Shown: positions 20,120-55,569 of the stretch, piece after piece
Position numbering within the stretch: the stretch's first letter is position 1
Layout of the letters: the number at the start of each line of letters is the position of its first letter
Source of the DNA: Ischnura elegans
Lineage: Eukaryota > Arthropoda > Insecta > Odonata > Coenagrionidae
NCBI RefSeq assembly: GCF_921293095.1
Contig: NC_060246.1
Location: forward strand, 132,308,198-132,372,197
Length of the DNA stretch: 64,000 nucleotides
Direction: 5' to 3'
The notes under the pieces: generated by a model
What the model was told of the DNA's origin: nothing
Databases searched by the model: none
What the model saw: the letters and a program-made list of their open reading frames with translations, nothing else
Translations under genes and position numbers: made by a program

Positions 20120-20820
20120 GTTATTTTTTGTTGGTGGTGGTTCTCGGGTATTGCTGTGTAGAAAACATTTTCACTCAACGTTTCACTCCTCCTACTGGGA
20201 GTGTTATCAAGAGAATGGAAAGAATTTATTCTCGTCCCGAGCTTATGTTTTTCGCTACCCATTGTTGTGCCGGATTTGAATTTTAGGGGATAGCCGTTGG
20301 TCATTATATTGTGCTAGGAACCCTCTCCATGTACGGCTGAGGTTATACCCATCCTCCCTATTAAAGTTATTAGGCCTTTTCGCTATCTCGATGGATTCAC
20401 GAAAAAGATGCGGATGATATTCTTCCGTCTTCGCCAATACCCGTGTAGTGTCAAACATTATTCTATGCCCAGGGCTGGAGGCAAAATGTTCAGCGACAGC
20501 TGATGAGTCCCACTGACGTAATTTTAACGCCCTTTCGTGCTCCTTAAGCCTTTGGGAGATTGAACGCTTGCTTTGTCCCACGTAGCTTCTGCCACAGCAG
20601 CAGGGAACCTCATACACTCCCATAGATTGAAGGGGAGGATGGCTATCCTTCGGTGAAGGTAGGATATTTTGAATCTTCTTCACGGTGCAGAAGCGAGTCT
20701 TAATGTTGCCTTTATGGAGGATTCTGGCGATTCAATCGGTGACCCCGGAGATGTATGGAATTCAGTTGAGTGAAAATGTTTTCAACACAGCAATACCAGA
20801 GAACCACCACCAACATAGAT
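20120..20820 (-). mobile_element. 5'-truncated Penelope-like element with inverted end repeats
   Basis: The minus strand carries the C-terminal GIY-YIG endonuclease part of a Penelope-like retroelement, followed by a 3' region with a hammerhead-like motif at 20170-20215 (TTGATAACACTCC...GGAGTGAAACGTT). The sequence at 20126-20172 recurs in inverted orientation at 20773-20819 (GTTGAGTGAAAATGTTTTC, CAGCAATACC, GAACCACCACCAAC), so the fragment is bracketed by inverted copies of its own end. The reverse transcriptase domain is absent. Confidence 0.85.
20255..20770 (-). pseudogene. Penelope-like GIY-YIG endonuclease, truncated
   Basis: Read on the minus strand, a 142-codon open stretch at 20255-20683 has the GIY-YIG landmarks of Penelope-like elements: GVYEVPCCCGRSYVGQSKRS, then KEHERALK, SAVAEH, and the C-terminal FRESIEIAKRPNNFNREDGY. 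Just upstream (to about 20770) the frame continues with GVTD and IARILHKGNIKTRF, separated by a TGA where family members have Arg, which fits CpG decay (CGA to TGA). The enzyme nicks target DNA during retrotransposition. With the reverse transcriptase missing, this copy is dead on its own. Confidence 0.88.
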
Positions 20821-38524: not shown

Positions 38525-41102
38525 ACACAGGTCAACAGTGGTTTTGGTGCCGGAGGTTTTAAAGCTGATTCCAAGTATAATTGGGGTGCTGAATCCAAAT
38601 ATGATATTAGTTTTTTCCCATCAGCTCTAGTTTTCAAGATACAGATGTGTTGTTACTTACGTGAAAAAATGTTCAATGTGATGATATTACATAAATGATA
38701 AAACCCACAAAATATAAAGACTTGATTTATTTATAGGAATGTTAAATCACCTACATTTACCATAGTTTTACAATACAATTGAATACAAATAGTAACATTT
38801 TTTACTGAAATAAAACAATTTAAAGAAAAAAAGACGTAAAAACGTCACTCAAGACTACGGAAGCTCCTTTTGCGCGATTTTCTTGCGTGCACTTTGTTAA
38901 AACAGTCTCGTTTTAAGCACCAGCAGTAATCTGCCATCATATGTTTATCCCATCTTCCTTGGTAGCGATCTTACATTGTTTTGATTTCCTGGTGAAATCA
39001 TTCGCCTTGTTTTTCACTTGTGTCGCCTAAATTTTCAGGAAAACAGTCTAAGTGACAGTGTATACTGAACGTTTATGCTAATATTACATCCAAGTGGTTT
39101 AAAGTTAGTGAGCGTATTGTTTACCAGCTCAATATAATTTATCTCGCTTGTGATTTCCCAGAAAATATTTTATTACCTAAACAAATGAAAGCCAACTGTT
39201 TTTTTTATCTCATTCAATTGCTTGACGAAAGCAGGATCCTTTGTAAGTTGTCTTATTTGTGGCCCATGAAAACTACCAGCTTTAAGTTTTTTCTATACTT
39301 ATCTGCGGCATTTTTATTCTTATGTAGCCGAAGCATGGTTCATCCTTGTCAAGAACCTTTACAAATTGCTTCATTAAGCCTAGTTTAACATGAAGGGGCG
39401 GAAAGGTGATTTTCTTCCGATCGACTAAAGACTCAGCAATAATATTTTTACCCAATAATTAAGTTTTCTCTCTTTGACCACTCCTTCTTAATCCAGTGGT
39501 TTGTCTGTCCCTGCTAGCACAGAGGCACCAGAAACAAGGATATTTTGTGTTGCTAAATTGCTGCCCAAGAAGAAAGTTCACCAATTTTAAATCTACACAA
39601 ATCACCTAGCGATGTCCCTAGTATTTTATCTTCTGTAAGGCCAATACTATTGTATCATATTCTTCTTTCATTTCAGTTGAATGTGCGATTGGTATTGAGC
39701 CAAACTTATCAACATTGTGAAGAACACATTTTAAACTACGCTTGGAGCTATCAATGAACAAACGCTAATCACTAGCTTCATATTGCGGTAGTCCCATTCC
39801 TTTCAGAAGACCTCTAACGTCTAAACAAAATGTAAGATTGTCTTCATGAGTAAAGAGGGGTAGCAAATCCTTTTCAACTGTGGGATAAAAATTAATTTTT
39901 GTACCTTGTTCCATTAAATTCTTTTCATACATCCTTGAAGATAGTAGTTCAGATGCTTCCTTCGGTAAGCTCAATTCTCTAACAAGGTCACTTAGTTCAT
40001 CTTGATAAAATAGTTCAGGATTTGTTGATACTGCCTCGTAGTCACTGTCACTATCGTCAATAGAATCAGGAATGTGTTCACATGGCTCATATTTATCCTC
40101 ACACACATCTCGTAATGCCTGAAATAATAGGATTGGGATTTCTTCTGAATGGGGTACCGGGTGTCTAGCTGAAAGCAAATCTGTATATTCCCATTTGTGG
40201 CGATTGTTTCGATTAAATCCCGAAACATTTACCATGCAAAAATAACAGTCGTCAATATGGTTTGTAGGTTCTCTCCAAACCATTGTCACACCAAACTTTA
40301 AACTTTTCCTTTTTCCTGTAGTTCTATACCGCTGATGTTCTGTACATGTTTTACACACAACATGCGGTGCCTACTTTTTACCTTGGTCACCAAGCTGAAC
40401 ACCAAAATATCCTAGGTATGCACGTTTCACAAAGTCTGTAATGTTTTTTCCTATTTTCTTTTAAAGTATATTCCCCACAAATGTAACAAAACACATCACA
40501 GTGATTTACACAGCTTCTTCGAATTGAGCTCATTTTTAGAGGCTGCTTTACAAAAACTTTGAGAATTTGACCATTTGTTTTCGGAAATCCCCTTACTGCT
40601 TACTTACTCCCGCCTCTCCATGTTCAAAGACACACTCTCTCTTTACCCTATCCCCCCTTTTTTAATCTTCTCCACTTATCTGTGATTATTCCCACGTGTC
40701 GTTATTCTACAGTTATGACTAGGGTCCTTTTCCACCGTGGGTTTCCCACATCCCTTAGTTGTATCTTTTCCCACTGCCTCCACTCTGTACGCCTGTCTCC
40801 CCCTTCAAACACGCCAAATCCTCCCCAACCCCTTTCTCAAAGGTATAAAGGTGATTTTCAAAGTAAATACGGCAGAGTGGTTATGAATTAGTTTATTTAT
40901 AGATTGATTTAAATTTAAAAAATATTTTCTGAAATGTATCAAATATTTCAAAGAATCTAATCATAAAATGCGCCGTATCTAAAAAAGTAGAGCTGTTACA
41001 TAAAAACGGATATCATATTCGGATTCAGCACCACTCATATTGTTAATATCAGCTCAAAAACTCCCGGCACCAAAAAAAAAGTTTTTTTTTGTTGGCCTGT
41101 GT
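38525..41102 (-). mobile_element. TIR DNA transposon carrying an unnamed protein family
   Basis: The left end ACACAGGTCAACAGTGG and the complement of the right end ACACAGGCCAACA begin inverted repeats that stay alignable for roughly 90-130 bp (shared blocks TTTTGGTGCCGG, GGTGCTGAATCC, AATATGATAT). Between them lies a decayed minus-strand gene (38850-40500). The target duplication is unclear (AAT on both sides is possible). I do not recognise a named superfamily. Confidence 0.7.
38850..40500 (-). pseudogene. Broken copy of an arthropod multicopy protein, possible DDE transposase
   Basis: A 197-codon open stretch (39765-40358) contains MVWREPTNHIDDCYFCMVN, an acidic linker, and a DLVRELSLPKEASELL helix. 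Past the first stop the same frame continues, with stops, through RLFIDSSKRSLKCVL (39760-39700), ICVDLKLVNFLLGQQ (about 39570) and KYPCFWCLCASRDR, then HVKLGLMKQFVKVLDKDE (about 39370) and a C-terminal basic tail near 38870. I recognise this layout from many uncharacterised insect predictions. The two Asp-bearing strands and the CxxC resemble an RNase H-fold (DDE) transposase; that is inference. At least five stops make this copy inactive. Confidence 0.7.
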
Positions 41103-44100: not shown

Positions 44101-46960
44101 TCTTGGTGAAACAATAGGTAGAGCCTCCTTAAATGAAACGTGTGTGTACATTATTGTAGATTAATTTTCGAAATGAATTCATTCTTATTTACCATGGATT
44201 GAGTTGTCAGTGTTTTTACTTCGAATTCCGTGTTAATTTGTCAAATCGCTTGAAATGTAGAGTTTGATTTCCATCAATGTTTTCCTAATAAATTTATAGA
44301 ACAATTTTCGCTATTTTGTTTGCGATACTTCAAAATTGCTACAAATAACAGTATTATTGTATTTGTCATTAAAATATGAATGTTTTTGTCCTAATTCTGC
44401 GGATGCTAAACATGAAGGCACAGGTTTATGGATTTAAAAATACTCTCGACATCCACGTGTTTAGTGAATTCTCTGAATATAGGTCACACTTGGGATGTGT
44501 ATGGGAAAAAAATTAAAAGACCGCCTGATCTGTGCTAACCTAAGTGATTTCTCATGTACCATTCAGTCATGAATTCATTTGGTTGTGATTGACTGCGGGC
44601 CCTCCCATGAGCTCAACGATTTGAGAAAAGATGTATTCAACGGTGTTCGGCGAGATATTGTGGAACATAATGATACAATGGTAAATGAAGAGCAAACTTA
44701 GTGCATGTCCACAGTAATTTTATTTGGTACGACGCGTTTCAGCGACCTTACTTCGCTATCATCAGGTACAAAAATATTTGAGCATTTTGAGATTTGAGAA
44801 AAGATTTTACATATGTGATGTACATGGAGCCATACTGGTTAGGTGATACTTTGCGAATATGGAGTACAAAATTCGAGTATTTATTTCTTTATCAATCGTA
44901 TAACTTCTTTTGGCTATGCCGATACCTTCAGACCCGTAAAAATAACAAACTTTTTCAATTCACAAACAATGTTCATTGTATAAATACAACTATTATCAAT
45001 TCTACCATCAGTATTGCCGGGTATTGGAGGGAAATAATTAAATATTGCGCCATCGTATGATTCGTCATTCACTAAAAAATATAGTTTTAAGGTAGTTTGA
45101 GCGAAAAATCAATCATTATAGAATTCTGAGATTTCTATCTCAATGCAAAGAAAAAGTCTTGCTCTTTCCAATGATATCATAATATACACCCCTTACCGGG
45201 CTAAATTCAGAGATATTTGTGAGTAAAGAGAAGCTGATTTACATGGCATAGATGGGAGGCATGCGCTTCGACGGCAGAATTTATTTAAATAGAATTATTT
45301 CTCGTACATAGAAATCGACAAAAAACTAACTGAGTGTAGTTAACTTCATTTATGAATTTTTGGTCACATTAAATTCATAGGTCACCGGTAGTATAATTAA
45401 AATATTTGAAAAAAACTTTTCGTCGAACAGGCATTTCCTGCAGACGACCGGATGCCGAAAGATTCGGTTTGGCAACGCCGCATAAGATTAAATGTAAGCA
45501 AACATGATCGCAGACGACAGCATACCAGAAATAAACATAAATGGAGATAATTGATTGCGTACGAGTTTAGTTTACTGATTTTCCATATTGTCGCAGTAAA
45601 TTCCATGTACAAAAACTACTTCGTGGTGGACATTTGGAAGTGAATCATGAGATTCGCGATTCCTGATACTATTTGGGTTGCTGTAAACTTCGAGTGAAGA
45701 GATTTCTTATGTGTATATAAATATGATTTGGTGGAAGGATGTAACCGATTTGACGCACACTTCAGTTTTCTGCGTATTTAATTGTCAAAGTAAGATTCTC
45801 CATCCGCATTAATGAACTTGCCATCTGTGACGAAAGCGAGTGGTTCAAACCATCTTACAGGTATGAGCCGTGCGGGAAACCTATTGAACACCGTGAGCAG
45901 GTTGTTATCTTCAGGTAATTTTCATATATTTAAGCCAACGCAGTCCGAACCTTACATGAAAATGAACGGACATAATTATTAGCGAGATACGAATGTAGTC
46001 ATGCGTTTACACGCAAGTTAAACAACAGCACATTACGTATACGGAAAAATGTTTTTGAATCATCTCCCCCAGGGAAATCAGAATTCATCTTACAATGCAT
46101 AAAACCTATTAAACTTGTTGCCTTAACCGAAATTGAGGAACCTTTCTAAAAAATTAATGTATAACCAGCCCTCCGAAATATTAGCATTGCTTGGCATCGA
46201 CTTTAAATAACTTTCCTTCCACGTAGTGCAAAATTACAAGACTTGCCCCGATGGGAAGTTCTTGCTCCAATAACTGTAGACTTTCACGTCATGAATGCTG
46301 AATTCACTACCAACAATTCAATGAATCCAATCTTTAGATAACGCATAACCGACGTATAAATTAATCTACCATTAATAGTATTATGGGGTCTCAAAGGATG
46401 TTCATCTTGCAATTTCCTTACAACAATCCCTTAGGAACAAGAACTTCACACCAAATATACTTTTGCTTACATCATTACAAAAATACTAAGTCAAAGCTAA
46501 AATATCCACCATGATCATAAAACTATTCTAAATTAAGCTTGCCATTCATCTCTATGCCTATTGTAGTGCCCCCTTACCTTTAGTTAAACTGGATACGATT
46601 TCAACGTTCTGCTTTTCATCTCAAGGCCCTATTTTGGAAATGTATGCACTTAGTTACCAATTTTGGGTGCGTAGGAAGGAAGTAGACAGAAAGTGAAATA
46701 TGACTACACTCTTGGTATACATATTCATTATTATTACATAACAAAAATTACAAAATATTTTTTAGAAAACCACTCTACATACAATGTCACATAAATTTAG
46801 CAATATACATTTCATTTTCACAAAGTGTTGGCCAAGAACATAAGATAGGATAGCCAGGGCTCACAAGATACATTAAATTGGCTACTACATACTTTGCTTC
46901 TCTCCATGAGATATTTTTCAACAATTTTATTATTCAAGCTAGCATGTGATTAATAATGAA
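41103..46960. other. Gene-poor DNA, one hammerhead-like trace
   Basis: No gene recognised. A pair of overlapping open frames (41348-41632 + and 41359-41694 -) shows no motif. At 44731-44765 (minus) lies a short CTGATGA...GAAAC motif, listed separately. The rest is AT-rich. Confidence 0.4.
44731..44765 (-). ncRNA. Hammerhead-ribozyme-like motif
   Basis: The minus strand reads CTGATGA, then an AGCGA/TCGCT stem II with a short loop, then GAAAC and GCGTC. This is the conserved core order of a hammerhead (CUGANGA, GAAA, then NUH cleavage triplet GUC) with the very short helix III seen in Penelope-like elements. Activity is not shown, and no larger element is recognisable around it. Confidence 0.45.
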
Positions 46961-47233
46961 ATATGATTTTTCCTGGAGTATAGGTCATTTATACAAAAGT
47001 TAGCAGCCAACAACGTTTCGATTTATTTTCTTAAATCATCTTCAGGGCTATGTTAGAAAAATTGTGAAACAGTATAAAATACAGAGAATAAGTCTTATTA
47101 GTCTTACTCTCTGTATTTTATACTGTTTCACAATTTTTCTAACATAGCCCTGAAGATGATTTAAGAAAATAAATCGAAACGTTGGCTGCTAACTTTTGTA
47201 TATATGACCTATACTCCAGGAAAAACCATATTA
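46961..47233. repeat. Long palindrome with hammerhead-like arms
   Basis: Arms of about 130 bp (46961-47092 and about 47103-47233) are near-perfect inverted repeats around a 10-base centre. Each arm has CTGAAGATGATTT, a TAAAT-side stem and CGAAACGTTG, the Penelope-type arrangement. Two small differences (for example an extra AAC at the left arm's CCAACAACG) separate the arms. No target duplication was found. Confidence 0.6.
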
Positions 47234-47267
47234 TATATTAAATAAGGTCAAGAAACAGAAAAAAATA

Positions 47268-47448
47268 ATATTTAATAATGAAAGATACTTTGTTTCTTCA
47301 ACAGGCTAATAAAAATCTTTTTTCTATTTTATTACCGGTTTCAGCTACTACACCATTAGTATTTGATAATGATATTATAGATGAAACTGGTAATAAAATA
47401 GAAAAAAATTTAACCTGTGGAAGAAACTAAGTGTCTTTCATTATTAAT
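47268..47448. repeat. Second hairpin repeat
   Basis: Inverted arms include AATGAAAGA(T/C)ACTT, GTTTCTTC and TTTCTATTTTATTACCGGTT. The centre is GATAATGATATT. The GCTGAAACCGGT(AATAAAA) block on the minus strand resembles Penelope-type end motifs, but no full hammerhead core is visible. Confidence 0.45.
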
Positions 47449-47682
47449 ATGGAGTCCTCCACCACGTATGTGCTCCAAGTTTCAATCTAGTTTGTGATGA
47501 CTGTTTCCTCAGAATTCCAGCCTAGTGGGATTTTGTCCATTAATTCAGTTACAAAAATTCTGTTCAGGGTGACACAGTACATTCTGCAGAAATGGGAAGA
47601 GGTTAATAAGACAAAGAATAATTTCTTTGTTAGTATTCAGCCCTACCTATGCCATGTGTAGACAGAAGCAAAAAAGGGCCAT

Positions 47683-47810
47683 CCTGGCTGTCAAAAACAT
47701 TGGAGTGGCAGCTCAAAAGCTATGGAGCCACATACTGCAGCAAAATTAATATCCTGCGATGAAGATTTTTTGAGTGACAGCTCTCACAGGAGGGGACCTC
47801 ATCGCAGGTA
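47683..47810 (+). pseudogene. Inverted scrap of the Mutsu transposase gene
   Basis: The plus strand GTGGCAGCTCAAAAGCTATG and following bases encode KAMEPHTAAKLISCDEDFL. This is the same sequence as residues near 274-292 of the minus-strand gene at 48572-52876, where it reads KAMEPYTAAKLISCNEDFL. A gap of about 13 bp just after DEDFL breaks the frame. It is a short inverted duplicate, about 2.5 kb from the source region. Confidence 0.75.
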
Positions 47811-47969
47811 CAAACAAAATACTGTGTTGGTATGCTGGAATGGGAAGATTCTCAGCAGTGACCAAACCCCAGCCTCTCCACCGGAAACCCTTCACAATCA
47901 CTCGCTCAACTCTGAAGGAACCTTTGTAAGGGTTTGGGGGCCTACCTAAGGCTGCTTCCGTTGAGTAAA

Positions 47970-48075
47970 CAAACACACAACCACTCATTGTAATAACAAC
48001 ACACAATCACTCATAGTAATAACAACACACATCACTCACCCACACAATCACTCAAACACAATCACTCACAAAACT
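47970..48075 (+). repeat. Degenerate minisatellite
   Basis: Imperfect tandem copies built from CACACAATCACTCAT(A/T)GTA and AATAACAA, shortening to AAACACAATCACTC toward the right. No coding meaning. Confidence 0.6.
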
Positions 48076-48570
48076 TACTCCGTGGGCTAAACTCCGGGAG
48101 AAATGCTCAAAATTGAGCAATGGTAATGTCAGGGTACCATGAATTACCAATGAAATCCTTGCTACCCTTGTAACAATGGAATAGCATAATTTTCTTGCCC
48201 ATCAAAGTGTGCAAAGACATTGATCAGACCTATGGACAAAATCCCACTAACAATTCAGGAGGAAATATCTAGAGTCAATCTTACCCAAAGGCGTTGATGC
48301 ATTAACCAGAATAAAAGAGAATCACCCAAAAGAAATACATGGATAGATTGCCCAATGTTATATCAGGCAAACCTTAATACCCATACAGTAAACCTGAAGA
48401 TACTGGTTTAAACACTGGGGAGACATCTGTCATCACAAACCAGACGATGTGGGGGGAATCTGAAAAAAGTTTTTAAAAATCTCTATTAGACTTTATGTTA
48501 CAACCATTTCTACCATATACATTTAAATTATGCTACACATTAAGCATAAGATAATGCCAGTCTTACCCTT
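48076..48570. other. 3' flank of the transposase-exonuclease gene
   Basis: No gene. TATGGACAAAATCCCACTAA at 48232 is repeated in inverse at 47523-47541 (CTAGTGGGATTTTGTCC), so material from this flank was also copied into the scrambled stretch to the left. Confidence 0.4.
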
Positions 48571-48576
48571 TTTATT
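48571..48576 (-). terminator. AATAAA overlapping the stop codon
   Basis: The last codons read CTT GAA TAA followed by AAAAGG, so the TAA stop is inside an AATAAA polyadenylation signal. If used, the transcript would have a 3' UTR of only about 15-30 nt. No other AATAAA stands out in the next 100 bases. Confidence 0.5.
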
Positions 48577-51500
48577 CAAGCTTTCTCAACTCCTCTAGGT
48601 GTTCACTAATAGCCTGAATTATTCTCCTTCTGGTCGTAACTCGTGGCTTCCCATTGATACTCTCACCTAAGAGTAATCTAATTCCCTCAGTACCAGATAT
48701 ATTGAATATTTCCACCAGCTTCTCCAAATCAATACCAGCTGTGGCCATTTTGGAAATCATTGAGCTTGAAATAACTCTCCCTAGGGTTTGTAATGTTGCC
48801 ACCTTCTGCGCCTTCCTTACAGCTTGCAATTTCCTGTTATTCAGTTCCTGTAAAGATAAAGAATTAGTAAGGAGTACTTCATTACTTATCTCAAAATGTC
48901 TTATGAGTCCATCTAGTAATTGGCAATCAATCATTGCATTATGGGTTCCACTCTTTATTCGTTGCCATTCCTCCCCTTGCAGGTATACTGATGCAAGCTC
49001 TTCAAGTTTTCTGCAACTACCCTGACTAATGAGCTTCAATGAGTCAGTAACCCCATACACACTTTTCAAAAGATCGTCGTTCAGGTCCAACTTCTGCAGC
49101 CATGATAAAATGCGAGGAGCATCAAATCGGACAATGTTGTGCCCAACTAACACCACCCTTGACTCAAAACTGGATAAGAAACTGATGAATTTCTCACCAA
49201 CAACCCTTGGAGGGGTTGTTTCAACTCTCTGGTTGTATAGGAAAAGTTCTCCATTAACAACCCTTAACCCTGTCTTCTCTGCTGCAATTGGATGAAATGT
49301 TTTGCTGGGCATCATGTAATAATTAAATTCACATTGCCCACTTTTACATGCAAGCTGCACAATATCTGCAGTGGAGGCAAATCCAGTGGTCTCAATGTCC
49401 ACAATTACAAATGTCACCTCATTTAGAGGTGGTGGCAATTCTCTTGTCGTCTCCTCTAATAAAGCACAGCCTAGATCAGCTTCCATAGCAGATTGGTAAC
49501 ATATTCCCTCTCTACTTTCATGTGATGATATCTTTTGCTTCTGCAATGATTTCAGAAACAACCTACGTCGCTTCACAGGGACTGTTACTTGCCTCCTTAC
49601 TTTGGCCTTTATTTTCTCTTCCATTCTGCTGGAATAGGACTTAGTGAGACTACCAGGGGAGAGGTCCAGCTTCCTGTTTATGCCAATAACATGTTTGGGG
49701 CCTAAATTCTTCTGGCAGGCAGCAGCAGCCACTCTTATATTCAAGGCAGCAGATGAACCATAGTGGCGGTTCTTAGGAGCCCTTATTGCTACCATTTGGT
49801 TGAAAGACTCATTTGCCTGTGAAGAACCACCAGGAGCAATTTTACTAGATTCTGCTGCAAAGCTTTCCAATATCTTTTCTAGGGCTGATTTAAGGGCACG
49901 CCCTTCAAGTGGTTTCCCACGGGGCAAACTTTTGTGAGAGTAATTGTCAGTGTCCCCTTTACACCACTCTCCACACCCTTGGTGATCCCCAAAAGCATGA
50001 TTGGCAATATTAATGATTGCCCTTCTTGTTCCCTCTTCATCTCCCCTGTTTTGGTCCACAGCATATGAGAAACATCTCTTCAAATATGGTATAACATTTC
50101 TGCCCAAGAGCTGCCGATGACTTGCAGAAGCTCGATATAGCCAAGAAGAGAAACGCTTCTTAGTATGGTTGATATCAGCCCATTTCTGTACAGAGTGCTG
50201 CGACTCCCTTTGTACAGCTGCCAGCGTTGAGGAGTCACCATCTCCTATGAGAGTTGTCACTCGAACACCAGCAGTCAAAAAATCTTCATTGCAGGATATT
50301 AATTTTGCTGCAGTATATGGCTCCATAGCTTTGGAGCTGCCACTCCAATTTTTTCGGCAGTCGTGATCGTTCTTGTCATGCCCCTGACTACACATTGCAC
50401 AGGTAGTGGTACACACGTCAAATGCAAGAACTTTTTTGGAGCGGTATCCAATGACAGATCCATGCCCTGCAAATGCAAAAAGAAATTTTAATCGTTAATA
50501 TAGAGGGACAAATAATACATAATTTATTTCTCAGAAAATATAATGAAACCAACCAGATTTACTGTCATATGACCGCCCATTGCCTCTCTTCTGCCACCCA
50601 TAGTCATAAGAGGCAATGATATCTACCTCAGCCCCATCACTGCCATGCATAGGAGACTCTTCACTCAGAGTCGTGGCACTGAAATAAATTATGTAGACTG
50701 AATGAGATGCCACATATTAGCCAAAGAACTACATTCAGAATTCTGTGACTGGGTAGAATTGTTACTAAGGAATGGAAATAGTATAATGACAATGAAGGTA
50801 ATCTACCACTTCACTTATGATGTTACTGATTCAACATTAGAAAGGAATATTGGTTATGTGTAAGACTTTTATACTCTATCATTGGTTAATATAACACCAA
50901 AATACATTCTGCTACTTTGGAACTCGTTAGTCTAACAAAAGCATTAATCACCATAGTGAAACAGGTTGTAATTATAATAAATTCAAGAAAGCAATCACAA
51001 TCAGGACTGCAGCATCAAGAACAACAGGGAGATGATGCCGACAAATAGGAACATTTTCTTGCAATAATGTTTAATAAGGAATTTGAAATGAAGAAGGGTT
51101 TGTGCTTGGGATATCCAGCCTTGACTTTAAAAAAATTGACAATAGGAAAAACATTCCTTTTCTGCTGTTTTCCATCCCAGCTGTTGGAGGAGTCAGTTAA
51201 TGCCTTTAAGTAATCAAGAAAGTTTTTGATCCGCTAAAAGCATTGAAAGTCTTGAATGAATAAGTATTACATAGAACAATAGTTGAGACACTGAGCATGA
51301 GCATTAGAGGAAACTAACCTAGGTTTCCAGTTGAAAGTACCCAATGTTCCATACCAGTAAATTGGCTGTGCTGATTACTTTGACTTCTTTAACGAACAAT
51401 GACTAAGGAATAATAAGCAGGAAGAAATTAGTTTGTCTTTAATTGCTGAAATGCTTAAGACATGGATACTATAATTGAAAATGTATGTTATATAGACTTC

Positions 51501-52876
51501 TAACCAAATCACCTGATAGCATATCACCATGATCAATCAAGCAGTGGCACTTGTAAGTTATGCCAGAATGTGCATGAATGCATTTTATTTAAAATTAAAG
51601 ATTTACCACGATTTCATTAACCATGGTTCCTTTGTATTCAGCAGGTATGTATTTCTTTATTTATTACCCTGAGGCCTGACCCTGCATTGTTCAAAGGTTA
51701 ATAACTTTATAATGGTTCAGTTCAGATCTTAGAAAGTGATCATTTTTCATCATAAGGATACTGCTTTCACACACATAACTTTTAGGAAAATCAGTGATGG
51801 TCACCTGACATGATTTTTGCACTATCTGCCTGATTTGAGATGAAAAGCCCCTCCAGTCAACAGCCACTTATTCAACTATGGCCTCATCCTTAGTAACCGA
51901 TAACAAGTAATACCGAAGGACAGTGATAATAATAATAATGTGAAGCAAAGGTAAAATTACACTTGAACATAGTAATCATAAAAGAAGCCACTGAAGTTCC
52001 TCAATTGTAGTTCATATATTGGACGTGACCACTACTGGTAATGTTCTTGGAAGGTAATGTACATTGAAATAAAAATCACACCGCCGAAATATTCCCAAGT
52101 ACTATGACAGAACCAAATGCGACCACAAGAGGCACATTTTTGAAAAATGAACATTCTATTTTGGTTTCGCTGGACTAAAAACACTAATATGAACAGCATA
52201 ATCATAAATAAACTGATACGATGAAACTTACGGTGTTGAGGTCAAAGTGAGAAGCTTCTCCTCCTCCACAGCCTTCTGGCACGACTCTCGCGCCGTCTCT
52301 TCAACCGCAGGCCCCACAGATCGCTCGTACCTTTTCCAAGTGGAATTGGCGACAGGCGGAATATTTAGGGTTGCCAAAACCCTATTCATTTGCTCGTGCC
52401 CAACACCTGACACGACGCAAGCTGAAAATGGAACAAAAATATATTTTCAGCTAATCAACTTCTTCTATTCCCAAATATGAATTAAGGTATTTATTCGAGC
52501 ACTTACCTATGGCGGCCTTACAATTCACTGCGTACTGAGCGTACGAGGACTTTGCACAATGCACTGCCGTAGATGTAGCAACTTTTTTCAATTGCTCACA
52601 AAAAGAGCAGCGCACCGTCCAAATGGAAGCTAATCCACGCCGCAACTCGCCTTCAATATTTGCAAAGGAAAGAGGTTTTAGGCAGGAATCGCAGTTCATC
52701 TGCTTAGCCAACAGATTTACGTCCACGATTCGCCGACCCTCCAACGTGAAACGTGGATTCGCTTCAATTTTGGGCGACGATTCCCTCTTCACCTTCGCCC
52801 GGGAAGAAGCTTTCTGCCTCTTCTCAAACTCCTTCTTCCGCACAAACCTTCCGTCTTTACTCCTGGATGGCTTCAT
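48572..52876 (-). CDS. Mutator-like (Mutsu-type) transposase fused to DEDDh exonuclease, 859 aa
   Basis: Exons (minus): 52507-52876, 52232-52421, 50554-50678, 48572-50466; AG acceptors and GT donors (exon 3 donor GTTGGT is weak); 2580 nt, no internal stop. Residues 1-125 are basic, then hold two Cys pairs (CDSC, CSFC), a likely zinc site. Exon 2 has the ACVVSGVGHEQMNRVLATLN block of Mutsu transposases. Likely DDE residues are Asp212 (SYDYGWQKRG), Asp304 (IGDGDSS) and Glu447 (SQANESFN); CxxC and DHQGCGEWC metal motifs also fit. Residues 580-745 form a 3'-5' exonuclease of the DEDDh type: Asp584/Glu586 in DIETTG, Asp676 in GHNIVRFD, His736 and Asp741 in HNAMID. All five are present. It may be an autonomous transposon gene or a domesticated one. 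No terminal repeats were found. Confidence 0.85.
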
Positions 52877-55569
52877 CGTAAAAGCAGAGAAGGCTGAAAT
52901 ACTTGCGTATCTCACTAAAAAATTAGAGAAATACTCGACTCTCAAAAATATTTCAACACCGAAATCTCTGCACCCTTCCTACGATTCAAGCTACTTCCAG
53001 CTAGTCACGTGTTTTTCTGAATTCCCGGGTTCCCAGGCTAGTTGAAAGTGTCACTGGTGTCACCAACCTAAGAAATTTCACGTTGTTGCCAAGTCGAGCG
53101 TCTCTTGGGCATATGTAATTTCTTTCGATAAAATGCTTCGAAATTGTTTTCTAATATGAGTAATCATTACATCTTTATGTTTTAACATTTAAAATTCCAG
53201 TAATCCGTACCCCAAGTCGGAGTTAAGGCAAAACTATACTAGGAAAACTTAGTAAGATATTACTAAATTTACCGTTGGTACCTTTGAAAATAAGTCAAGA
53301 TTAAGTTTAAATTACGTAAAGTTCGTTCATAACTGAGAAAAATAAGTAACGCAAACGAAGATTTTCCGCATAAAATATTGTGAAATTGTGTCAAACGCCT
53401 TAATAACTGTTTATAATTGTAAATTTTATTAAAATTTAATCGCTTTTTTGACTTCGGAACTATCTCGCTCAAACCACCTTAAGGTTATTTCCTGTCAATT
53501 AAAATTAATGAGTATGATAGGCAGTTATTTAAATGTCGATTTTTTCTGAAGCTTCATTCGATTTAAGTAAAATGTGTTGATTTGAAGTGAAATTATATTT
53601 CCCACTCTCCTTTATTTTAATGGGTGTTTTTGCTTTTTACTAAAATTTGTGTTCGCGAATGTTGCTGGTGCGTGATTGATGCGTCAATGTTCATCAGTGG
53701 TATGGATTGTTAGGAGTCTATAGGACCGAGATTGTATCAAGTTCTTCCGCATTCACGTTGAGAATACTTATTCCTTCTTTCACCGCTCGCTTTGTTTTTT
53801 ATCGGGTTTTATTTCCCAAACGTAATAGAATTAAATGAGCTGCTCATGTTCATTGTTTAGTCATTTCCCCAACAACCGTCTGCGGCCAAAAGGACGGCAA
53901 AAGATTGTTCTTTTTTAGGTCCTATTTAAGCATTGAAGACTAATATCTGCATAGTGATTGCACTTGAACATATTGGAATTGATAGTATAACATTTATTAC
54001 CGGCTCACGTGGAAGAGAGTTGCATTTTTCTCTGTATGCATGCAATTCTTTCGTAATAATTTCATTTATTCGGTACCTAATAGCTTTTTAAAGATTTTCT
54101 CTCACATATTTATTATTTCCTGGTGGTGTGTTACTCCGTTAGTGTCTCAACATTCCTTTAGAGATAAGGTTGTGAACTTGAGAATGTAGAAGAATTTATC
54201 ACGTAACCCTTACCGTTTTGGAAATCAACATTATACTCATTTTAATGCACTCGGAGCAAACTTCGGGGATTTTTTTAATAGCGCAGTTTTAGAAAAATCG
54301 TGGAAACTTCCCCTCTGTCCTAATTTTTTCTGAACTAACTAGAGAAATTGGCCTAGTTTATAATGTATTTTATATGTAAATGTAATGTAATTTAAGAAAC
54401 CAACAGTCCTTCTCGTCGTAATTTCTTGTTTCATTTATATTTTATTATTCGTTTTATATACTATTCTTAGCTTTGAGATTACATTTTCTCACGGCTTAGA
54501 ATAATCCTTTATCCCGGAAGTAAAGGAACTCCAGATTTTGTAAGCATCATTAACCTATTTTTAGCGAGCTGTTCAGTATGCGGTTGATCCGGATATAACT
54601 TGAGCCGTTTAATCCCATTAACGTGATGTGGAACTGCTAGTGGTTAGGGACATTCTTTTTTTTTCAGTTTTGTTTTAGTTTTATTCTTTTCGGCCAATTG
54701 AGCTGCAACATATGCCTTTTTAGGTTTCTCATTCATTTTCGACTCACTAAGTGCGCTTTATTGCAATACTTGAGAAACGAGTGGGAAGAGCAGATAAGAA
54801 GAACGCAGAAAATATTAGCGTTCTTCATTTAAACTTTTATTACGTTTCCGCGCAGGTAACATATTCGAAGAGCGCCAAGAAAATTGTCAAAAGCGAAGAG
54901 CGCCTCGCGGAAACCCGAGAAAAGTTTAAATATATTTTGTTCGCCGGGAAAGTGTAAAATCTTGCATTAGTGTTTTTTTCTCTCCGTGGACCGTCCCTCC
55001 CTTTCAAGAACATTGAATATCTGGCAGCATTCAATATTGATTCGTCGAAATATTTTTATTCAACTAATAAGCGATTAATTTACCCCTCATAGTATAAGAA
55101 GCTCGCCATGATAATAGAAATGGATATGCCTTGCGTGTCGTGGATTTTATGCCGTGATTTGTTTTCTGGCATTGTGATCTCGGTGACCAAGCAATTGGAT
55201 AGTGTGAGTTAACAGAAGTGAATCTAAGGCTGCAAAGGTTGAATTATAAAAAAAAACTAAATTTACGTGTTTAATTTGTAACTTGGGTAAATATTATGAA
55301 TTTTGCGCCACGAAAACTGGCACATAATTAGGAGATCCGGTGAAGTCTATTTTTTCCATATCTAATTTATGCTTTTGCAGTATTTGAAAATAGGGAATTA
55401 AAACTGGGCACTGAATAGCGAATACGAAATTTTTTCTCTTAGTTGCTTCCTCCGTTTCATGTCAATTCAATATTTTTTAATAATCGGGTGTATTCATATG
55501 TGCTTGTACTTATCATCGTGAAAATTTTTAATATATATTTCGCGGTAACTGTGAGCCTTAAGTCAATTA
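52877..55569. other. Intergenic DNA, no gene recognised
   Basis: Region upstream of the transposase-exonuclease gene, including its probable promoter. A short inverted repeat lies at about 54830-54930 (TTTAAACTTTTATTACGTTT against the complement of AAACCCGAGAAAAGTTTAAA) with a GAAGAGCGCC direct repeat inside; it accounts for a 68-codon open frame. Otherwise AT-rich without motifs. Confidence 0.4.

Follow-up and report, generated by a model that had tools for sequence, protein, structure and literature searches.

Known relatives of the transposon

A 2022 paper by Kojima and Bao (PMC9587614) gives as marks of Kolobok transposons TTAA target-site duplications, termini of the form 5'-RR..YY-3', zinc fingers and a C/DxxH motif. 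In the available text of that paper, the KolobokD lineage is defined by a DEDDh exonuclease and is known from arthropods, molluscs and cnidarians, so the combination of transposase and DEDDh exonuclease in Kolobok is already known. Here we analyze an element of this kind within 64,000 nucleotides of the Ischnura elegans genome (contig NC_060246.1, positions 132,308,198 to 132,372,197), a stretch called the window below. As read from the sequence, the product of the element's single gene is a DDE transposase whose C-terminal tail consists of a 3'-5' DEDDh exonuclease and a final SAM-like (PML_C) domain. The element is very probably a full-length, apparently autonomous and recently mobile transposon of the Kolobok superfamily and the KolobokD lineage, with a transposase-exonuclease-SAM gene. 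The original prediction, made from the letters of the window, had called the pairing unusual, and in this it was anticipated by KolobokD, in print since 2022. The SAM-like domain and the transposon ends are additions to that prediction.

Exonuclease and SAM-like domains are also joined in two host proteins. PML-1 (promyelocytic leukemia protein) is a stress-response and antiviral scaffold, and its PXL module shares with the transposon tail the exonuclease-like plus SAM-like layout and the PML_C match, a comparison made via the Pfam model only. In contrast to the tail, which has the whole residue set, PXL keeps one of four DEDD residues and is described as inactive (PMC12934764). The accessible text of PMC12934764 states that, among structural relatives of PXL, the exonuclease/SAM layout is found only in Exuperantia, and the SAM subdomain in no other nucleases. 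With its predicted active-site residues intact, the protein of the transposon seems to be an exception to this statement.

What is possibly new, judging from the alignments and domain matches below, is a transposon tail composed of an exonuclease and a SAM-like domain akin to Plex9/PML and Exuperantia. Such a tail links a mobile transposase, the PML-1 C-terminal module and the maternal RNA-binding protein Exuperantia, which are unjoined in the literature searched. Kolobok and promyelocytic leukemia never appeared together in that literature; a 2023 paper on PML-like exonucleases in Nucleic Acids Research (NAR) lay outside the search and may discuss a transposon origin.

Gene structure and catalytic residues

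The gene lies on the minus strand, and its four exons join into a single open reading frame of 859 codons before the stop, from the ATG at 52876 to the stop at 48572. All three introns have GT..AG borders, with splice sites read from the sequence. The proposed fusion of a DDE transposase with a complete DEDDh residue set was therefore borne out as one open frame. The exons and the two domains of the tail are as follows.

52507..52876, minus strand: exon 1, with the start codon at 52874-52876; 98-99% matched in other copies
52232..52421, minus strand: exon 2; a similar stretch occurs in family C, locus L023
50554..50678, minus strand: exon 3, which holds the first catalytic residue, D212; its end is backed by families B and C
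48572..50466, minus strand: exon 4 including the stop, with the remaining transposase (D304, DINH 326-329, E448), linker, exonuclease and SAM-like domain
48884..49420, minus strand: DEDDh exonuclease domain, about residues 578-756 (D585, E587, D677, H737, D742)
48575..48883, minus strand: helical SAM-like/PML_C domain, residues 757-859, from the PML_C match and models

In the 859-residue numbering, the DDE residues are D212, D304 and E448, and the DEDDh residues are D585, E587, D677, H737 and D742. The numbers first proposed for Asp212 and Asp304 stand, and those for the other six were each one too low. Exon 3 could end at 50551, 50554 or 50557 with the frame kept, and a GT follows only 50554. 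The choice of 50554 is also supported because two sister transposon families in this genome (B and C; the window element belongs to family A) read through the same point in one exon: the junction RSYDSKSG^HGSVIG of the window corresponds to RSYSSLTG-HGCLIG in these families, which are intronless there.

The Pfam matches of the protein are far from chance. They comprise PF20700 at residues 47-397 (E 6.9e-78), Exu_RNase_H_like at 581-712 (4.2e-8) and PML_C at 786-854 (5.1e-9); RNase_T fell under its cut-off in the 859-residue protein.

Element ends and superfamily

The limits of the element are the points at which similarity to other copies stops.

45091..53478, minus strand: whole element, 8,388 bp, with termini 5'-GG..CC-3'
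45087..45090, no strand: left TTAA target-site duplication, directly outside the element end; the flanks vary by locus
53479..53482, no strand: right TTAA target-site duplication, adjoining the element end
45091..45104, plus strand: left terminal inverted repeat GGTAGTTTGAGCGA, 14 bp
53465..53478, minus strand: right terminal inverted repeat GGTGGTTTGAGCGA, 14 bp, with 1 mismatch versus the left

Terminal inverted repeats had been expected somewhere between 45 and 55 kb and were found there, flanked by TTAA and not by the anticipated duplication of 8-9 bp. Ends were placed both by BLAST boundaries and by exact letters at 13 family A loci (the window and 12 others). Both ends were found at 12 of these, with TTAA at 24 of 24 ends and different flanking DNA at each locus. 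At the thirteenth locus, on contig C9, no end was found in the left piece, the one side looked at. Family A loci at C8:97.77 Mb, C10:94.47 Mb, C19:61.47 Mb and C16:3.51 Mb fall outside this count. In family B, TTAA is present at five of six end pieces. The 1.72-Gb genome contains 120 instances of TTAA followed by the 14 bp, and 0 of the reversed form.

The protein carries further marks of the superfamily. A C/DxxH motif (DINH 326-329) lies between the second D and the last E, and a zinc finger (C393, C397, H406) follows between this motif and the last E. A CCHC finger is found past the first catalytic D (C251, C254, H263, C265), and all of these finger residues are invariant in a four-row alignment. 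The GG..CC termini fit 5'-RR/YY-3', a feature that separates Kolobok from piggyBac, and the union of DEDDh residues and transposase in one frame is the mark of KolobokD. Because the ends, motifs and zinc fingers agree with PMC9587614, we place the element in Kolobok and KolobokD. The families are likened to KolobokD by its description, not by its sequences; that description shares TTAA, RR..YY, a DDE domain with C/DxxH and CCHC finger, and an Exuperantia-like DEDDh exonuclease. KolobokD differs in that the available text of PMC9587614 gives it no SAM-like or PML_C domain and contains PML 0 times.

Two kinds of internal repeat accompany the gene.

47643..47776, plus strand: partial, inverted duplicate of exon 4 (50272-50406) of the same element, 84% identical; also in four aligned copies
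46949-47243 and 47272-47447, no strand: two palindromic repeats inside the element; present in four aligned copies

The inverted exon 4 piece lies 3' of the gene. It could be speculated that a read-through transcript forms a hairpin that feeds small-RNA silencing.

Copies and recent mobility

Of 520 candidates for family A copies, 53 were scored, so copy counts are lower bounds. Exon 4 (residues 228-859) is open and 99-100% identical at no fewer than eight loci, counting the window; one more locus spans residues 233-859. Near-identical open exons at this many places imply recent mobility. Three full copies differ from the window copy by 14, 15 and 17 substitutions plus small indels over about 8.4 kb, the copy with 15 having been compared as two overlapping pieces. 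The suggestion of a recent arrival is upheld by these distances, which indicate a young copy.

Across exon 4 of the nine copies, raw counts give 23 replacement differences and 1 stop (24 together) to 9 silent, compared with the 3.49:1 expected from possible changes. The tail accounts for 9 replacement and 6 silent differences, and the transposase part for 13 replacements plus the stop and 2 silent, again as raw counts. Most of the differences, including the stop, belong to the copy on C9, an older copy that has no catalytic E448. As far as such counts can be read, they agree with a recent burst and subsequent drift better than with one selected host gene.

Many pairs of TTAA plus 14-bp ends, among the matches listed, lie about 6.0 kb apart. 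One such element (L068; G000 C1:24327400-24333800) is a rearranged derivative, 74-86% identical, without a long frame. Because L068 lacks a long frame, the class of about 6.0 kb that shares these ends is probably mobilized by autonomous copies. Two shorter elements derive by deletion: L070, of about 1.8 kb, and L069, of 389 bp.

The exonuclease-SAM tail

All three transposon families keep the exonuclease active site and carry the tail in frame with the transposase. In sequence rankings, fish Plex9 is nearest to the tail, followed by Exuperantia and PolC, and then more weakly by TREX and DnaQ. The Plex9 proteins are the nearest solved exonucleases by sequence, and Plex9.1 (PDB 9mrc, 9mrd) is also nearest by fold; PDB entries 9l85 and 9l8b, titled 'exodeoxyribonuclease III', are classed here as Plex9-type by 53-72% identity. 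Plex9 differs in belonging to host proteins without a transposase, and its solved chains (189-196 residues) are exonuclease only. TREX1, TREX2, DnaQ and PolC have the DEDDh fold in common with the tail, but their sequence matches are weaker (against the tail profile, DnaQ 3.6e-5 at best, TREX2 3.3e-4, TREX1 0.0058).

The last 70 or so residues of the window protein score 39.8 bits for PML_C, versus a cut-off of 27.1. A model comparison of the C-terminal domain listed SAM domains, with modest Z. For SAM_Exu, families A and B score 13.6 and 15.8 bits versus a cut-off of 28.9, and family C is not listed. Exuperantia (PDB 5l80) can be aligned over both domains and gives a PF22123 match above cut-off, but is a reported pseudonuclease, has no transposase and is more distant than Plex9.

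When a Plex9-type chain was searched against the genome, 28 matches were obtained. Of three places then read, two fall outside families A, B and C; four weak or decayed matches (C15:7.26 Mb, C10:38.07 Mb, C7:71.57 Mb and C3:125.86 Mb) lie outside this reading. One of the two (L072:1672-2985) is host Exuperantia, a single open frame of 438 codons (PF22123 228 bits, SAM_Exu 52.6 bits), and its presence points to an insect host. Compared by BLASTP with this protein, the window tail is significant in the exonuclease part alone (1e-10). The other (L071:768-1883, minus strand; G000 C2:49417567-49418682) is a 372-residue open frame that combines an exonuclease with a SAM-like part and has the complete set of five catalytic residues. 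It matched no transposase of family A, B or C within 12.7 kb, of which 0.77 kb is downstream, and no PML_C or SAM_Exu model at E up to 1. L071 is without a near genomic copy; its best-scoring relatives are 34% identical, with short pieces up to 40%. Its sequence makes it a candidate Plex9/PML-type host gene. A five-sequence alignment of families A, B and C, L071 and host Exuperantia spans both domains.

Origin of the tail

Exonuclease identities to Plex9 are 32-35% for family A, 29-38% for B and 30-36% for C, and those among families are 32% (A-B), 33% (A-C) and 45% (B-C). The distance from Plex9 to the transposon families thus matches that between some of the families themselves. A ten-row tree recovers the two Exuperantia rows (100/100), B+C (93/92) and Plex9 (85/95), with one open fork for A, L071, B+C and Plex9 that Exuperantia also joins when DnaQ is added. 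The best ten-row tree pairs A with Plex9 at 52/78, and competing groupings are not rejected by the approximately unbiased test (p-AU): 0.205 for the transposon families as one clade, 0.379 with L071 included, 0.386 for Plex9 plus Exuperantia and 0.43 for A plus Exuperantia. The trees appear compatible with transfer in either direction between transposon and host module.

One scenario, possible although we lean somewhat against it, is that the exonuclease-SAM module of vertebrate PML-1/Plex9 and insect Exuperantia came from KolobokD-type transposons by at least two host captures. Catalysis would have been lost in human PML-1 and in Exuperantia, and L071 would represent a third capture before decay. 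If true, transposon descent would contradict the published view that the SAM-like domain of Exuperantia was gained within arthropods. The transposons offer an intact-active-site version of a module described as a pseudonuclease in both PML-1 and Exuperantia, and the origin of both is testable by phylogeny.

Role of the tail and alternative explanations

The transposase would excise the element and insert it at TTAA, as expected from other Kolobok elements, and the tail may act as a DNA exonuclease, as reported for its near relative Plex9.1. Kojima and Bao proposed that intermediates are degraded from their 3' ends, as far as the available text of PMC9587614 goes. We suggest tentatively, giving the idea about a third of our confidence, that the tail, kept close to the complex by the SAM-like domain, digests exposed 3' ends, either of by-products at the donor site or of aborted intermediates. 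Transferred 3' ends would be spared and remain exact, because the located termini are exact. The earlier idea that the exonuclease trims ends before joining is constrained by these termini, which are flush with TTAA; since they were found partly by exact letters, this argument is not fully independent. For the study of a fused exonuclease in cut-and-paste transposition, intact copies of such a KolobokD transposon are a useful test case.

Several observations weigh against reading the element as a KolobokD transposon with a Plex9/PML-like tail that acts in transposition. Exact termini oppose trimming of transferred ends, yet are compatible with trimming in failed events. The sister families B and C score 20.3 and 21.9 bits for PML_C, under the cut-off of 27.1, and a PolC-type exonuclease matches the tail profile at 7.7e-10, nearly equal to Exuperantia. 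The putative superfamily assignment is drawn from ends and motifs, and the Pfam name of PF20700 is Mutator-like transposase. The Mutator label of the original prediction follows this name, which would suit a Mutator (MuDR/Mutator-like element, MULE) that acquired an exonuclease. Mutator/MuDR elements have target duplications of 8-9 bp or longer, and PF10551 is the MULE mark. Twelve resolved loci have the 4-bp TTAA instead, and PF10551 is not among the matches of the protein at E up to 1, yet is present elsewhere in the genome; a Mutator origin is accordingly quite improbable.

The main rival to a role in transposition is that the exonuclease tail is a passenger, serving for example in defence against other elements or in self-limitation. 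The title of the 2023 NAR paper cited in PMC12934764 and PMC11602975 reports that PML-like exonucleases restrict vertebrate retrotransposons, and the active site is kept in families A, B and C. Against a passenger, the tail shares a single frame with the transposase in each of these families, which points towards a role in cis; a passenger is unlikely, if still worth considering. That the fusion is instead a domesticated host gene, as was first entertained, is far less credible and the most improbable of these explanations. The intact 859-codon frame, the lower ratio of replacement to silent differences in the tail than in the transposase part, and the standalone L071 frame without a nearby transposase would agree with it. 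However, the gene has numerous near-identical mobile copies, which share its ends and are spread over many contigs, and the window copy departs from the nine-copy majority by 1 replacement (residue 691), which is nothing distinctive.

Other observations

Genome-wide, PF10551 gives 25 matches, 5 of them in frames of more than 1,300 codons, and these constitute a distinct group of Mutator type within this genome. Within the window, two further minus-strand frames have no Pfam match at 0.01: one of 201 codons (39768-40370) and one of 158 codons (20258-20731). By eye, the latter resembles what we take to be the GIY-YIG endonuclease of a Penelope-like element.
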